A DNA stretch of 27,732 nucleotides. Origin: a virus. Positions within the stretch are counted from its first letter, which is position 1; each line of letters starts with the position of its first letter. Made by a program: the position numbers and the translations under genes. This document shows positions 8,748-24,250 of the stretch, piece by piece. Under the pieces are notes generated by a model, which saw only the letters and a program-made list of their open reading frames with translations, did no database searches and was not told the origin of the DNA. The DNA is taken from positions 1-27,732 of IMG/VR virus record IMGVR_UViG_3300035680_000071; one strand, 5' to 3'.

Positions 8748-10309
8748 AATAACATTCTTGTTCCTAGCATTATGGTATAATTAAGTGCATTCTCATTAAG
8801 AGCCCATGCACCTCCACAGTTTACGTTAAGTTTAAATCTCTTACTTAAACTTACATTAGTACCAACTATAGGTAAAACCACGTGCGGTGATTTTAATAGT
8901 ATATCGTTATAATAACTAACATAAGGAGCATAAACATATAATCCCAGAAGTTTAATGTCTATTCTCTTTGAAACTTTAAAATCATACATGGTACCAGCTA
9001 TTGCTGCAGTACCTACAAATTCCTCACCATATACATTACCGTAAGATCCAGTTAGCATATAAACTGCTTTAAATTTACCACGTTTGCCTATATTCCACAT
9101 TTGACCAAGAGCTAATGTACCATACAATGATGATCTTCTATCGAATCCTAATGTTACTGTACCTGATATAAGATCTATTCTTTTCTTTTTAATGAAAGCA
9201 TAGAATCCTGTTATGTTTGGCCCTTTTATAGCTGTTGTATAATCTGCATTAATTCCCCATGATCTTGCACCATCCCATCTCATCGAGGTATAACCTCCCG
9301 TTACTTTACCACCTGCGGTTACATCCGAATCCTTGAAATTGAATCCAACAAAATCACTACTGGCTAATATCGTTGGTCTGTTTCCATTTTTATTAGACGG
9401 TGAGCCACCGCTGTTTGTTGAATTTTGTACTGAAGCAACAGATCCACCAACTATATTCGTTTTTCCTTCGCTTTCTGTAGGGGTTTCTGTGGTAGTAGTA
9501 GATTCGCTTTTTCCATTGCCTCCTTCTGTGGAACCCCCGCTCCCATTAGTATTGCTGCTATTCTGACCAGTAGATCCACTTGATCCGCTTGAAGTGCCTG
9601 TCTGACCTGATCCTGTTGTTCCTCCAGATCCTGTTGTTCCTCCAGATCCTGTTGTTCCTCCAGATCCTGTTGTTCCTCCAGATCCTGTTGTTCCTCCAGA
9701 TCCTGTTGTTTGGTCATTAGATTGCGTAGACCCGTTAGTAGCTGTAGAGCCCCCGGTATTATTACTACCGTTAGCATTACTATTTCCGTTATTGCTGCTG
9801 TTGTTTCCATTATTACCTCCCTGATTTTGAGAACCACCAGATCCTGTTGTTCCTCCAGATCCTGTTTGTTTATTCTTACCTTTATTGTTCCCACCATTTG
9901 ATGAATTCTGTACACTCCCCACGCCGGATAATATATTAGTTGATCCTGCAGTAGCAGCCATATCGCTAAGTGCAGATAATGAATTAACTATACCTATAAA
10001 ATTTATAGCGGTGTTCTGTGCAATATTAACTGTTGACGATAAGCCAACTATAGTTGCGCATGGATTGTTCCCCCCATAATTGGAATAAACATTTTGTGTC
10101 CATGTTTCAAATCCGCCATTATAAAAATCTATTGGCTGGAATGTTTGGATTTCTCCGTAATAATTAACTGTGATCCCATTGGAAGGAACCTGTAGAGATT
10201 TTATTGACCCTGTACATGGATCGGTATAAGAATACGTGAATGTTTGCCCATATCCAATTACATTGAATGCGAGAATAAGAAATAATGTTGATATGGTTTT
10301 AGCATACAT
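8744..10309 (-). CDS. Secreted protein with low-complexity linker and putative outer-membrane beta-barrel
   Basis: 521 residues with signal peptide MYAKTISTLFLILAFNVIGYGQ. An N-terminal globular part (23-130) is followed by a Gly/Ser/Thr/Asn-rich linker (about 135-300) that includes tandem GGTTGS hexapeptides. The C-terminal part (about 305-521) has alternating hydrophobic/polar segments, such as SWGINADYTTAIKG, GTVTLGFDRRSS, YGTLALGQMWNI and FKAVYMLTGSYG, and ends in TIMLGTRMLL, the pattern of outer-membrane beta-strands. I infer an outer-membrane protein of host-like type. It follows the CsgG-like gene directly (1-bp spacing) and overlaps the lectin gene. Its exact function is unknown. Confidence 0.6.
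   Translation of the reverse strand: MYAKTISTLFLILAFNVIGYGQTFTYSYTDPCTGSIKSLQVPSNGITVNYYGEIQTFQPIDFYNGGFETWTQNVYSNYGGNNPCATIVGLSSTVNIAQNTAINFIGIVNSLSALSDMAATAGSTNILSGVGSVQNSSNGGNNKGKNKQTGSGGTTGSGGSQNQGGNNGNNSSNNGNSNANGSNNTGGSTATNGSTQSNDQTTGSGGTTGSGGTTGSGGTTGSGGTTGSGGTTGSGQTGTSSGSSGSTGQNSSNTNGSGGSTEGGNGKSESTTTTETPTESEGKTNIVGGSVASVQNSTNSGGSPSNKNGNRPTILASSDFVGFNFKDSDVTAGGKVTGGYTSMRWDGARSWGINADYTTAIKGPNITGFYAFIKKKRIDLISGTVTLGFDRRSSLYGTLALGQMWNIGKRGKFKAVYMLTGSYGNVYGEEFVGTAAIAGTMYDFKVSKRIDIKLLGLYVYAPYVSYYNDILLKSPHVVLPIVGTNVSLSKRFKLNVNCGGAWALNENALNYTIMLGTRMLL
9604..9712. repeat. 18-bp tandem repeat in the linker of the barrel protein
   Basis: About six copies of GATCCTGTTGTTCCTCCA on the plus strand, encoding GGTTGS. 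A further partial array at 9838-9863 shows the same unit. In-frame copy-number change is possible. Confidence 0.85.
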
Positions 10310-14228: not shown

Positions 14229-14532
14229 ATGTTCACTTAGTGAGATGTGCTAAGCTAGATTTTAACGGGTTACTCTAGCTGTTTCGAGAACCATCACTCC
14301 CATGGGTACGAGCCATGCGAAGCTTTTCATTAGTGTCTTACCACATAAAAACCTGTCAAGCTACTGAGAGGCTCTGCTACCTGCCTTTGTTCTCAGTTCC
14401 AGTATTTTAACTAATTTGACTCATTACCACCCATGAGATGATTGCTTTCCAAACCAGCTTTCGGTTACCACCTGGACATTAACCGAGATCCTTTAATGAG
14501 ATCTAAACATGGAGGGTATCTCTTACCCTTTG
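14229..14532 (-). other. 300-bp structured spacer containing tRNA-like elements
   Basis: No ORF and no canonical T-loop. 14419-14500 has acceptor-like CTCATTA/TAATGAG (7/7) and a standard D-arm GGAT-CTCGGTTAAT-GTCC, but a degenerate T-loop. 14329-14415 is bounded by ATTAGT/ACTAAT and holds a 7-bp hairpin ACTGAGA/TCTCAGT. 14255-14281 holds the AGCTAGA/TCTAGCT hairpin. These may be decayed or non-canonical tRNAs. Confidence 0.45.
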
Positions 14533-14966: not shown

Positions 14967-15068
14967 GTGACTAATAAGGATTCGAACCTTAAACCTGCGT
15001 CCCCTTTCCGTGAGTGCTAAGCACTATTCTTGTACTCCGTTCTGCTGTGCTCCAATACACTATAGCCA
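14967..15068 (-). other. Oversized tRNA-like element
   Basis: 102 nt. Acceptor TGGCTAT/TTAGTCA (6/7), D-arm GTGT-ATTGGA-GCAC, perfect T-arm TAAGG-TTCGAAT-CCTTA, and encoded CCA-like 3' end. The region between the D and T arms is about 60 nt and lacks a normal anticodon arm. It contains hairpin AGTGC-TT-AGCACT and a possible CGGAGT/ACTCaCG stem. The anticodon cannot be assigned. Confidence 0.5.
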
Positions 15069-15118: not shown

Positions 15119-15219
15119 TGGACCGGGCAGGATTCGAACCTGCGACGCCTAGTAGATGTTAGTTATTCTTGGCCTTCGAATACATCCACCTTAGTGTTTA
15201 CCAACTTCACCACCGGACC
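15119..15219 (-). other. Oversized tRNA-like element with extended anticodon stem
   Basis: 101 nt. Acceptor GGTCCGG/CCGGTCC (6/7), canonical D-arm GTG-AAGTTGGTAAA-CAC, perfect T-arm GCAGG-TTCGAAT-CCTGC. The anticodon stem GGTGG/CTACT continues without a break into ATGT/ACAT, so a 30-nt insert replaces the 7-nt loop. Inside it is TATTC/GAATA. Confidence 0.55.
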
Positions 15220-15486: not shown

Positions 15487-15634
15487 TGGTCACGGTAGGA
15501 ATCGAACCTACTATATCAATTACTTACTTAGTCACTTACCATGCTGCTTAACCGGTATCTCGGGCAGTAATACTAAATCATCATTAATCCATTGGCCAAT
15601 CAGCATTACATACTGACCTATAGCTTTCGCAACC
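15487..15634 (-). other. Oversized tRNA-like element
   Basis: 148 nt, fitting between the two initiator tRNAs with about 6-nt gaps. Perfect T-arm GTAGG-TTCGATT-CCTAC and acceptor 3' strand CGTGACC. The best 5' partner is GGTTGCG (7/7 with two wobbles) at 15628-15634. The intervening 115 nt have no clear anticodon arm. It may instead be a 3' fragment only. Confidence 0.4.
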
Positions 15635-16097: not shown

Positions 16098-16781
16098 TCA
16101 CGAATTCTTCTGTATTTTTATATCCCTATCTAAATCTCTTTGTCGGGGTTTTCTTTTTATATTTTTTATATTTCTCCCCATATAAGTTGGTGTTAGTGCG
16201 TCACAATTTGGACAAATCAACCTAAAATTATTTTCTAGGTTATTTTGGGGATTTCCGTCAATGTGATCCAATATTAATGGTATATTTACGCCATTCCAAC
16301 TTTCATTTTTACAAATTTCACAGCAGTGTCCTCTTTTTAATATTAAAAACTTCTTAATAGTTTTTCTGTTTGAATCAGTAAAAATCCCGCCGTCTAATTT
16401 TTCCTGATTTATTTTTGTTATAGATTTACTATGACATTCTGGTGAACAGTATTTGGTTCTTTTTTCTTTATCTACTGTATTAAAACAGATCGGACAATTT
16501 TTTAGATTTTTTTTCCCTCTACTTATATTTGAACACGTCACTGAGCAATATTTTCTTGTCTTGCCAGATTTCTCATTATCGAACTCATCTCCACAACAAA
16601 GGCAAATTAGAATATCGATATTTCTTAAGTTGTCGAATTGAGATTGATTTATTCCATATTTTTTCAAAAGATGGTTTTTAATTGAATTGTAACTTTTACC
16701 TATTACTTCTGATATTTCTCTATATTTTTTTCCATCCTCTAGTAATTTTTTAGCAAGAATAGACTCGGTTTCATTCCACAT
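16098..16781 (-). CDS. HNH homing endonuclease with HTH and zinc-finger modules
   Basis: 227 residues. An N-terminal helix-turn-helix-like segment (1-42, REISEVIGKSYNSIKNHLLKK) is followed by two treble-clef-type Cys clusters (60-83 CLCCGDEF...YCSVTC and 96-117 CPICFN...YCSPECH). The HNH nuclease core follows at 152-195 (HCCEICKNE, LILDHIDGNPQNN, RLICPNCD). This arrangement is typical of free-standing phage homing endonucleases that cut an unoccupied allele and copy themselves in. It sits 17 bp beyond tRNA-Leu(UAG) inside the tRNA array, presumably targeting tRNA-region sequence. No intron is visible around it. Confidence 0.88.
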   Translation of the reverse strand: MWNETESILAKKLLEDGKKYREISEVIGKSYNSIKNHLLKKYGINQSQFDNLRNIDILICLCCGDEFDNEKSGKTRKYCSVTCSNISRGKKNLKNCPICFNTVDKEKRTKYCSPECHSKSITKINQEKLDGGIFTDSNRKTIKKFLILKRGHCCEICKNESWNGVNIPLILDHIDGNPQNNLENNFRLICPNCDALTPTYMGRNIKNIKRKPRQRDLDRDIKIQKNS

Positions 16782-17505: not shown

Positions 17506-17520
17506 ATTTTTATTTATTAG

Positions 17521-17593
17521 ATCCTCCGACAGGGATCGAACCTGCAACCTGCTGATTACAAATCAGCTGCTCTACCAATTGAGCCACGGAGGA
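17521..17593 (-). tRNA. tRNA-Thr(UGU)
   Basis: Acceptor TCCTCCG/CGGAGGA, anticodon arm GCTGA-TTTGTAA-TCAGC (TGT), T-loop TTCGATC. Confidence 0.95.
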
Positions 17594-17685: not shown

Positions 17686-17694
17686 ATTCATTTG

Positions 17695-17778
17695 CGGAGG
17701 AGTGAGGTATCGATCCCCATACCCGAGGGTACCGCTAGTTTTCAAGACTAGGTCAAGCGCCAGCTTAATTACTCCTCC
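17695..17778 (-). tRNA. tRNA-Ser(UGA), copy 2, degenerate T-loop
   Basis: Acceptor GGAGGAG/CTCCTCC and anticodon arm CTAGT-CTTGAAA-ACTAG (TGA). The T-loop is ATCGATA instead of TTCGANT, and the D-arm is atypical. Possibly a decaying duplicate of the copy at 14533. Confidence 0.7.
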
Positions 17779-18160: not shown

Positions 18161-18277
18161 ATGGACGAGTCTCTCCCCGTTCGTCACCCTCCACTTTTTT
18201 GCGCATCAAATTGGATCTACTTCCTAAAAGCTATTCCTCTTATCCATTGTGGCAGCAGACAGGTCAACGCCACATCG
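18161..18277. other. Spacer without recognised gene
   Basis: 117 nt. I see no T-loop, promoter box or credible ORF; the plus-strand frame here is antisense to tRNA-like sequence. Confidence 0.3.
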
Positions 18278-18476
18278 TGTGTTGTACAGGATTCGAACCT
18301 ATACCCAACGGCCTTATGTACCGTTTACGGACCCTATGACCTGTTACATGAAGTAATTAATTTCATTACGCATATCACCTAGCACTCCGTGTCCCTGTGG
18401 CCCTTTTTAAGATAGTGTCTAGAATCTTCTTAATATCTACCCATCGGAAGCTCTGACCAAATTGAGCTAACAACAC
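18278..18476 (-). other. tRNA-like element split by about 120 extra nucleotides
   Basis: 5' strand GTGTTGT (18470-18476) and 3' strand ACAACAC (18279-18285) pair 7/7. A canonical D-arm GCTC-AATTTGGTCA-GAGC lies at the 5' end, and a T-arm ATAGG-TTCGAAT-CCTGT at the 3' end. A possible anticodon arm ACGGT-ACATAAG-GCCGT is near the 3' half, so the insert would lie near tRNA position 26. Total 199 nt. It is spaced 5 nt from the next element. Confidence 0.55.
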
Positions 18477-18481
18477 TTTTG

Positions 18482-18596
18482 AGTTACTGATAGGATTCGA
18501 ACCTATGCCAATCCCACGTCTCGCATCCAATCTGAAAGGGAATCGAACCCTACGCACGGTTACAGGGAGACTGCTCTTCCGCTAAGCTACAGTAAC
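18482..18596 (-). other. tRNA-like element with a 44-nt anticodon loop
   Basis: Acceptor GTTACTG/CAGTAAC (7/7), D-arm GCTT-AGCGGAA-GAGC, anticodon stem GTCTC (18567-18571) with GAGAC (18518-18522), T-arm ATAGG-TTCGAAT-CCTAT. The loop is 44 nt instead of 7 and itself contains a second T-arm-like GGG-TTCGATT-CCC. 115 nt. The anticodon cannot be read. Confidence 0.6.
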
Positions 18597-18789
18597 ATAA
18601 ATGGAGCTTGCCGACGCTGTATTCACTATGGATTGATTTATTATTATAACCCTACGGGATAATTAATTATCACCATCTACAGGTCTACTAATGTGGTTTA
18701 TAGCAATGTGGTTTACGCCAACAACACGTTTACTCCTACTGCATCCATAAAAGAATTAATCATCATCACGGACCGACAAACTCTATTTG
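18597..18789. other. Spacer with small repeats
   Basis: Contains the direct repeat AATGTGGTTTA twice near 18690-18715 and the 14-bp palindrome GATAATTAATTATC (18658-18671). No T-loop or credible ORF. Confidence 0.3.
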
Positions 18790-18859
18790 CTACCAGCATA
18801 GGAATCGAACCTAATATCTCCCTTACGATCGGGTGCGTATGCCAATACGCCAACTGGTA
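18790..18859 (-). tRNA. tRNA, probable Thr(CGU)
   Basis: Acceptor TACCAGT/GCTGGTA, D-arm GCGT-ATTGGCAT-ACGC, T-stem TTAGG-TTCGATT-CCTAT. The anticodon arm CCC-GATCGTAA-GGG is imperfect. Taking T33 before CGT gives Thr, but the loop is 8 nt unless one mismatch is allowed. Confidence 0.55.
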
Positions 18860-19223
18860 ATATTATGGGTTATGAAAATGATAAAGTGTATAGACTATGC
18901 TAACGACAATGCCAACGTCAAAGACCTTCCTTTACTACAAAGGCAAAGTCAAAAACCAAGTCTCTTTTTGCTAACCAATTATCTGTCTAGTGGTAAAGAT
19001 TCCTCTTTCTCTATGAGATTTCAGTAACTTGTTTAACAATTGAGTTCTATCTCAGTTTTTTTTGTTTTTGTAAAGGAAGCGGTTGCTGTTTTATCTGTTT
19101 CCGTAGAAACACTTAAATTAGTTTATAACTATCATCGATAAGATTTTATATAAAACATTACCACCTTCAATCAAATGGTTATGGAATCGTCTCCTGACTA
19201 TCCATAACCAACCCCACTTTTAA
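18860..19223. other. 360-bp noncoding region
   Basis: No credible ORF or tRNA. Holds a 14-nt hairpin GTTTC-TACG-GAAAC (19097-19110, minus strand), closed by C-UACG-G, an extra-stable tetraloop class, and TGGTTATGGA/TCCATAACCA (19176-19210, 10 bp) just past the stop of the gene at 19224. It could carry the 3' end of that mRNA or a small RNA. Confidence 0.4.
19176..19210 (-). terminator. Hairpin downstream of the 305-aa gene
   Basis: 10-bp stem with 15-nt loop, 14 bp after the stop at 19224. It lacks a T-tract, so termination is doubtful; it may be an mRNA-end stabiliser. Confidence 0.4.
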
Positions 19224-23536: not shown

Positions 23537-23613
23537 TTGGCAGAATGGGATTCGAACCCACATATAACCAGTTAACCTTTCTACCGCGTATCAGGCGGAG
23601 GGTATATCTGCCA
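23537..23613 (-). other. Non-canonical tRNA-like element overlapping an endonuclease gene
   Basis: Acceptor TGGCAGA/TCTGCCA (7/7) and T-arm GTGGG-TTCGAAT-CCCAT are sound. The middle does not fold as D-arm plus anticodon arm. The best hairpin is CCGC-CTGATAC-GCGG (would read GAU, Ile) placed where the D-arm should be, while a D-loop-like AACTGGTTATA sits next to the T-arm. Its first 23 nt are also the 3' end of the endonuclease at 23591. Confidence 0.5.
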
Positions 23614-24250
23614 ATATATTTTTAATGCTATTTTTAATATTATCCTCTGGAAACTTTATTCTAAATATTCTCCATCCATTCTCCATCAATTTTTTATCTT
23701 TTTTAATATCTATTAACATTCTCTCGTTTTGATTATGCTGTCTTCCGTCTATCTCGATAGCAATTTTATGATCAACGATTGCAAAATCTATAAAATATGG
23801 ATGAAATGGATATTCATATTCATATTGTATGCCATATTCATCAAGAATTGATTTTGCTATACTTTCAGGATATGACATCTCAAATTTTGACCTTGTTCTC
23901 CACCCGAACTTAATGTCTGGATTTTTGTGTTTTTCATAAGCTGATTTTGAAGAAGCTTCCGTTATATTTTTTCTATAATCATCATCCAGCCATTTTAATT
24001 GTGCGGCGCATTTTCTTGAACAACATGTCTGTAGACGTTTTGACCAAGAAATTTCAAATTTATTTTTACAGTGGCCACATTCTTTTATTTCTGGCGGGTT
24101 TCCCTTTCCTGTCAATGTTTTCGAAACCTTATAATTTATTTCCGATCTTTTAGATTTAGTACTAAATCCTCTAGAGCATTTTAGAGAGCAAAATCTCCCG
24201 CTACCCAATTCACCATTATGTACATTCCCACAATTTTCACAACTTTGCAT
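23591..24250 (-). CDS. Zinc-finger plus PD-(D/E)XK (Vsr/DUF559-like) homing endonuclease
   Basis: 219 residues. Two Cys4 clusters (C4-C25: CENCGN...FCSLKC; C58-C81: CGHCKN...CCSRKC) suggest DNA-binding zinc ribbons. The C-terminal half carries a nuclease core of the very-short-patch-repair/DUF559 type: YEYPFHPYFIDFAI with D155, then AIEIDGRQHN with E166 and D168, and NGWRIFRI. Such proteins act as free-standing homing endonucleases in phages. The stop lies 23 nt inside the tRNA-like element at 23537, so insertion may have replaced the 5' part of that tRNA. Confidence 0.8.
   Translation of the reverse strand: MQSCENCGNVHNGELGSGRFCSLKCSRGFSTKSKRSEINYKVSKTLTGKGNPPEIKECGHCKNKFEISWSKRLQTCCSRKCAAQLKWLDDDYRKNITEASSKSAYEKHKNPDIKFGWRTRSKFEMSYPESIAKSILDEYGIQYEYEYPFHPYFIDFAIVDHKIAIEIDGRQHNQNERMLIDIKKDKKLMENGWRIFRIKFPEDNIKNSIKNILADIPSA

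Follow-up and report, generated by a model that had tools for sequence, protein, structure and literature searches.

Phage transfer RNA (tRNA) genes are commonly interpreted as aids to translation or as a means of escaping anticodon nucleases. Other RNAs are known to use parts of the tRNA fold: transfer-messenger RNA (tmRNA; RF00023) has tRNA-like ends around a middle that is not an anticodon, and the bacterial Y RNA YrlA mimics the D and T arms of a tRNA but does not decode. GOLLD and ROOL, phage non-coding RNAs of much larger size, often lie near tRNA genes. Some tRNA genes hold group I introns in the anticodon loop, and Devoto et al. 2019 (PMC6784885) report tRNA introns in Lak megaphages, including one in a tRNA-Thr(TGT) that possibly itself encodes a tRNA; introns in Lak tRNAs are also noted in PMC8346664. 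Against these systems we compared a tRNA-like gene of 115 nucleotides (nt) on the minus strand at positions 18482 to 18596 of IMG/VR virus record IMGVR_UViG_3300035680_000071, a 27,732-base fragment hereafter called the window, in which a tRNA-like frame encloses an enlarged anticodon domain. By its architecture, the gene has in our judgment about an even chance of belonging to a class of tRNA-shelled RNAs that do not decode and are carried by Bacteroidota phages.

Architecture of the tRNA-like gene

The gene at 18482-18596 is real: it has the shape of a tRNA and carries additional nucleotides in the anticodon loop. It matches the tRNA model RF00005 over its full length in Infernal (47.4 bits), and its acceptor, D, and T arms can all form as in a canonical tRNA. 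The 5' acceptor strand GTTACTG (18590-18596) forms seven of seven Watson-Crick pairs with CAGTAAC (18483-18489), leaving 18482 as the discriminator base; the D arm GCTTAGCGGAAGAGC (18573-18587) has a GCTT/GAGC stem with four of four pairs, one of them G-U; and the outer T arm ATAGG-TTCGAAT-CCTAT (18490-18506) pairs in five of five positions. The D arm, outer T arm, and 3' acceptor strand were read from the sequence and placed alike in the Infernal alignment.

In the anticodon position, the 5' strand GTCTC (18567-18571) has two potential partners. Pairing with GAGAC (18518-18522) in five of five positions, the register drawn in a first-pass annotation of this DNA and also present in the minimum free-energy (MFE) fold, gives a 44-nt loop and an 11-nt variable region. 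The Infernal register pairs GTCTC with GGGAT (18515-18511), restoring a short variable loop and giving an anticodon-position loop of 51 nt. Neither register yields the canonical 5-bp stem with a 7-nt loop and U33, as C occupies the U33 position. The 44-nt loop (18523-18566) consists of CCTGTAA followed by 37 extra nt, in which AGGG-TTCGATT-CCCT (18537-18551) forms a T-arm-like hairpin that is paired in the MFE fold. ARAGORN missed the gene in default mode and called it a tRNA-Thr(tgt) with a 37-nt intron, i(37,37), in intron mode.

The first-pass annotation had described four drawable helices, 37 extra nt in a 44-nt loop, and a T-arm-like motif inside that loop, and had proposed Infernal and ARAGORN with intron options as checks; the helices, the extra nt, and the inner motif stand, and both programs recovered the gene. 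Its premise that phage tRNA introns are group I introns only does not survive, since short Lak inserts had appeared in print in 2019 (PMC6784885). The insert does resemble group I introns of tRNA genes in lying in the anticodon loop, but 37 nt is far too short for one, and at Rfam gathering scores no family except tRNA matched in the window, group I introns, GOLLD, and ROOL included.

IMG/VR contains four further contigs of the same phage (L003-L006), two of 373 kb and two shorter, and the 115 nt of the gene are identical in all of them, indicating that the gene is no one-off assembly error. When the phage was scanned for an acceptor, D arm, and T arm within at most 140 nt, one strand gave 37 genes and the other none, compared to 0.5 genes per strand in Markov sequence. 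We defined as long-only those genes for which a perfect acceptor and D arm were found upstream of the T arm solely at a long span (101-240 nt). Four such genes occurred among 42 T arms of the phage coding strand, versus 0.185 expected with shuffled upstream DNA: 258474, 259150, the 18482-18596 gene, and a 198-nt gene at 18279-18476.

Recurrence in the phage and its relatives

The first-pass annotation was in no position to see that the phage and its relatives repeatedly carry tRNA-like genes in which the anticodon domain is abnormal. The phage has eight such genes, one of them weak. Four share an AGTCAGG...CCTGACT shell (258474, 169 nt; 259150, 129 nt; 259425, 86 nt; and 303655, 97 nt), with inserts of different lengths and one shell base that varies in two of them. 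Other shells are found at 330465 (the 18482-18596 gene, 114 nt without the discriminator), 330585 (198 nt), 333842 (100 nt), and 333993 (101 nt, weak). A shorter remnant of the AGTCAGG shell lies at 259633.

Relatives were chosen by their head protein (174 found, 80 kept), and nine of their records were searched for tRNAs, with matches in seven. Three nearly tRNA-free records, G005 (one match), G009 (two), and G046 (one), contain oversized genes of 117, 110, and 132 nt, respectively, and all three genes carry the AGTCAGG...CCTGACT shell. Across 56 records, the shell pattern was present in four (the phage itself, G001, with G005, G009, and G046) and absent from 52, many of which are fragments and which include Lak-A1, B1, C1, LR756500, LR756502, and LR745206. 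In addition, two gene pairs with other shells align throughout between relatives G023 and G027.

This recurrence bears on the explanation that the 18482-18596 gene is a chimeric or decaying pseudogene, in which two neighboring tRNAs were fused by a deletion that left the T arm of the first in the loop of the second. The inner T-arm-like hairpin is indeed followed by CAGATTG, which pairs with only three of seven acceptor bases, and the array holds other odd genes, such as 18789-18859, a tRNA-like gene with a good acceptor and a 6- to 8-nt anticodon loop to which ARAGORN assigned no isotype. That no relative of the GTTACTG shell shows selection and that the outer T arm is not formed in the MFE fold are also consistent with decay. 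However, the four outer helices can be drawn free of mismatches (7/7, 4/4, 5/5, and 5/5), and fusion of unrelated genes would rarely produce seven of seven Watson-Crick acceptor pairs, while the different stems of the inner and outer T arms make recent duplicates unlikely. Furthermore, abnormal-anticodon genes recur in relatives whose examined records have few or no normal tRNAs. We regard a pseudogene as unlikely, though with an appreciable chance.

A constant shell around variable inserts in virus contigs

In public virus contigs, a 25-base pattern for the 3' part of the AGTCAGG shell matched at least 120 stretches. To the listed viral stretches we added the cellular loci, three loci from relatives, and the phage itself. 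From 194 motif matches examined, 180 had a pairing 5' strand, and these gave 175 unique shell copies from 122 sources, 59-205 nt long with a median of 104 nt. Bases that the search did not impose are conserved among the 175 copies: T8 in 167, G9 in 158, G10 in 155, G12 in 147, A14 in 149, A15 in 150, and G18 in 147.

An anticodon-like arm, defined by at least four of five pairs, a 7-nt loop, U33, and a variable region of up to 24 nt, was in place in 16 of the 175 copies. Shuffling the inserts left such an arm in 9 of 175, whereas all 25 of the 25 ordinary tRNAs of the phage have one. The 18482-18596 gene also lacks such an arm. With GTTACTG...CAGTAAC in place of AGTCAGG...CCTGACT, it does not belong to the AGTCAGG family by shell sequence; its architecture, a tRNA shell with a non-canonical anticodon domain, is that of the family.

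The shell genes are intergenic, with 1 of 180 inside an open reading frame (ORF) of over 150 amino acids (aa). Their nearest downstream ORF lay on the same strand in 135 cases and on the opposite strand in 24, was absent in 21, and began at most 60 nt away for 51 of 159 shells. In 82 of 121 stretches examined, ARAGORN called no other tRNA, so the shells do not represent remains of tRNA arrays. ARAGORN called a tRNA in 37 of the 175 copies by default and in 122 in intron mode, with isotypes scattered in those printed, which would explain why annotation never joined the shells. A 74-nt shell query against 50,697 deposited phage records returned 672 weak matches, none covering over 80% of the query length. 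We found no description of the shell family among the titles and abstract starts listed, a scope outside which most subscription-journal papers fall.

Comparison with Lak megaphage tRNA introns

The Lak genes offer the nearest parallel to the gene under study: a huge Bacteroidota phage, a major head protein about 44% identical to that of this phage, and short extra sequence in the anticodon loop. The Lak tRNA-Thr(TGT) case (PMC6784885) carries a tRNA-like insert. The gene could be a tRNA-Thr(UGU) with a short Lak-type intron, in line with the intron-mode ARAGORN call, the intron being cut out by nucleases and the ends rejoined by the T4 Rnl1-like RNA ligase that the phage encodes (L030:1222-2358). 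We consider this improbable. Removing the insert does not restore a normal tRNA: the loop CCTGTAA has C33 in place of U33 in both registers, and in the GTCTC/GAGAC register the spliced product would keep the 11-nt variable region. A normal tRNA-Thr(tgt), called by default ARAGORN, lies nearby at 17520-17593. Neither RtcB (PF01139) nor an archaeal-type tRNA endonuclease (PF01974) was found in the 373-kb phage record, the host being outside this search. Because intron mode calls tRNAs in so many AGTCAGG shells, it is a weak guide, and with 159 of the 175 copies lacking an anticodon-like arm, intron is a doubtful word for them.

Three nested Lak genes differ from the gene at 18482-18596 in detail. 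Read by eye, their inserts seem to separate position 36 from position 37 in a U33-type loop, with AA preceding the 3' stem, and end with their own tRNA-like acceptor; at 18482-18596 there are C33, a partial tRNA, and no AA before GAGAC or GGGAT. The three Lak inserts (L265:164-322 and L272 reverse strand 1854-2018 and 9484-9670) also share, by eye, a 5' hairpin and AAATTAAACT, and each encloses a tRNA-like unit with an acceptor that finishes close to the 3' end of the insert. Cutting by RNase Z followed by a ligase could be a splicing route for these Lak inserts.

Insert families and their surroundings

By their inserts, 40 of the 175 shell copies fell into 17 families and 135 were singletons. 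Double changes that keep a base pair numbered 31 over the 17 families, compared to 12.0 in column shuffles. The pair L140/L178 illustrates this pattern, with 4 of 23 pairs kept by double change (three insert pairs and one D pair) and none broken. Double changes likewise keep 7 of 23 pairs in the Lak pair L266/L268 and 6 of 24 in L267/L269, again with none broken; in L266/L268 the first 23 bases of the insert are the same.

Flanks of up to 800 bases, some shorter or too short, were compared by blastn; they did not align in 12 of the 17 families, were homologous in 3, and were partly so in 2. The non-aligning flanks in 12 families indicate that the retention of the unit, or its movement, does not depend on the DNA around it. 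A grouping of flanks (82 groups from 162 flanks, one of 59) was set aside because we judged it confounded by tandem shells in the flanks. We found no conserved neighboring gene, as 105 downstream and 107 upstream proteins gave two and four clusters, respectively, of three or more. An earlier split into canonical and non-canonical genes (159 and 179 of 338; 9 and 137 for the shells), which counted anything of at least 100 nt as non-canonical and so misfiled some ordinary tRNAs, was replaced by the count of anticodon-like arms.

The combination of constant shells and variable inserts could also suit a decoy that binds host anticodon nucleases, tRNA-sensing defenses, or tRNA-modifying enzymes while being unusable in translation, and phage tRNAs are reported to evade tRNA-targeting defenses (PMC10264068). 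The phage's Rnl1-like ligase also suggests pressure from RNA-cutting defenses. Yet the usual target of such attack, the anticodon loop, is the very part that is missing, and near-identical inserts in non-aligning surroundings suggest that the insert itself matters. A decoy at 18482-18596 appears very improbable to us.

A proposed tRNA-shelled RNA: model and opposing evidence

RNase P, RNase Z, and CCA addition all recognize a frame of this tRNA-like kind. Under the reading of the 18482-18596 gene as a tRNA-shelled non-decoding RNA, the acceptor, D, and T arms would be retained as a tRNA-like shell, and the anticodon domain would be enlarged or replaced by another fold. The transcript would probably be trimmed as a tRNA is, by RNase P at the 5' end and, at the 3' end, by RNase Z or exonucleases with CCA addition. 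The shell may then provide stability and recognition by tRNA-binding enzymes, with the insert as the putative working part, for example, by binding some factor of the host or of the phage. For the class as a whole, we infer a function of this kind.

Several observations weigh against this reading. For the 18482-18596 gene itself, the free energy of the fold is not unusual compared to shuffles (z of -1.12), and the MFE structure includes the acceptor, D, and GTCTC/GAGAC stems without the outer T arm, the 3' half of which pairs with the variable region. Patterns for its insert and 5' half matched only the four copies in the same phage, and an exact pattern for an insert-free version had no match in viral contigs. 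Blast of 50 records of relatives, many of the records being fragments, returned an 18-nt T-arm match in one record and nothing else, an intron-free orthologue included. The GTTACTG shell is thus without known relatives, and it is by architecture alone that the gene is placed in the class.

Other opposing points concern the class. The pairing-5'-strand criterion is loose, with 37 of 180 shuffled upstream sequences also passing and some letters imposed, and we therefore put weight on positions 8, 9, 10, 12, 14, 15, and 18, at which the commonest base occurs in 147-167 of 175 copies. A single five-member family, in which 26 cells are broken as well, accounts for 17 of the 31 double changes, and the G023/G027 pairs have just one double change each. 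Alignments of 14 of the 17 families fold with z below -2, scores that the shared shell inflates. The inserts are only modestly more structured than shuffles, reaching a P value of ≤0.05 in 22 of 132 clusters for MFE and in 18 of 132 for a pseudoknot (about 6.5 expected), and a pseudoknot, seen by eye in several, was rejected as their common fold. An antisense-guide role also found no support, as no 14-nt complement occurred elsewhere in the phage for seven stretches, with the stretch for the 198-nt gene placed 4 nt off.

Comparison with tmRNA and Y RNAs

In spite of the likeness of tRNA-like ends around a non-anticodon middle, no tmRNA match (RF00023) was found at 18200-18900 up to an E value of 10. 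The tmRNA of the phage is a separate gene (G001 157762-158221; L027:17762-18221; 64.3 bits), uncalled by ARAGORN, and a homing endonuclease-like gene (L027:18273-19112) comes immediately after it.

A Y RNA of the YrlA type was rejected. At 19.4 bits, the RF02553 match, which spanned two neighboring genes, fell below the gathering score of 69, and the order of arms is permuted: the T arm precedes the D arm in the YrlA alignment, whereas 18482-18596 keeps the tRNA order. Ro60 (TROVE) was not found in this phage and was present in two of seven records tested. TROVE-like 530-aa frames lie in the tRNA regions of G023 (201420-202187; L259) and G027 (223870-224631; L260), where a Y RNA partner may be nearby.

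Cellular matches and hosts

A slightly narrower 3' shell pattern, searched in genome contigs of 84,980 species, matched eight stretches, all in contigs of metagenome-assembled genomes and six labeled as Bacteroidota taxa. The shell is complete in six of them; a seventh is missing the 5' strand, and the eighth is an array of the clustered regularly interspaced short palindromic repeat (CRISPR) type with a 77-nt period (DITN01000042.1 from Bacteroidetes UBA6183; L257, about 640-670). In this array, a spacer is identical to the AGTCAGG shell over T arm and acceptor; its full 31 nt were found in no other locus compared, and a 27-nt core was found in one (L217). The cellular matches and spacer support Bacteroidota hosts and indicate that the shell can be a target. 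In our reading, sorting tails resembling those of Bacteroidota type 9 secretion in phage proteins point to the same phylum.

Other features of the phage and the window

The terminase large subunit and major head protein were recognized in the phage. The window contains 29 tRNAs by ARAGORN and 31 Infernal matches, all on the minus strand. Directly downstream of the 18482-18596 gene is the oversized 198-nt gene (18279-18476, minus strand), with a GTGTTGT/ACAACAC acceptor, a D arm, and a T arm, called tRNA-Pro(agg) i(35,106) in ARAGORN intron mode. On the same strand, a 101-nt tRNA-like gene (15119-15219; RF00005, 37.9 bits) folds with a long stem-loop in the anticodon position, and we read its D arm as leucine type. 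A weak 100-nt tRNA-like gene (14968-15067, minus strand) has an acceptor with six of seven pairs and scores 21.8 bits, below the RF00005 gathering score of 29.

We read 17694-17778, uncalled by ARAGORN or Infernal, as a serine-type tRNA-like gene; 90 bases at this site are 94% identical to the 642-kb uncultured phage LR756502.1. At 15488-15634 there is a T arm with an acceptor strand, CGTGACC, that could pair with GGTTGCG farther upstream; the whole unit of 147 nt is, by eye, a possible further oversized tRNA-like gene. Endonuclease-like genes lie within the tRNA array at 23591-24250 (DUF559 type) and 16098-16781, the latter encoding a zinc-finger/HNH-looking protein without a Pfam match. Gaps between tRNA-like genes at G001 256737-256985 and 303752-303880 and at window 14240-14520 look structured by eye, some being closed by complementary ends, and had no Rfam match at gathering scores.

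Implications for huge-phage tRNA genes

More broadly, we tentatively propose, at somewhat less than even likelihood, that these genes are mobile RNA cassettes in which a constant tRNA-derived shell is processed by host tRNA enzymes and a fast-changing payload acts on factors of hosts or rivals, with hosts aiming CRISPR at the shell; the 18482-18596 gene would be a member with a private shell. If phage RNAs with a tRNA body and no anticodon are widespread, some of the odd, intron-bearing, or undetermined tRNAs of huge phages would form a separate class of non-coding RNA, and the constant AGTCAGG shell provides a handle for finding more of them. Bioengineers wrap other RNAs in a tRNA scaffold, and nature may here use the tRNA scaffold around other RNAs in the same way.
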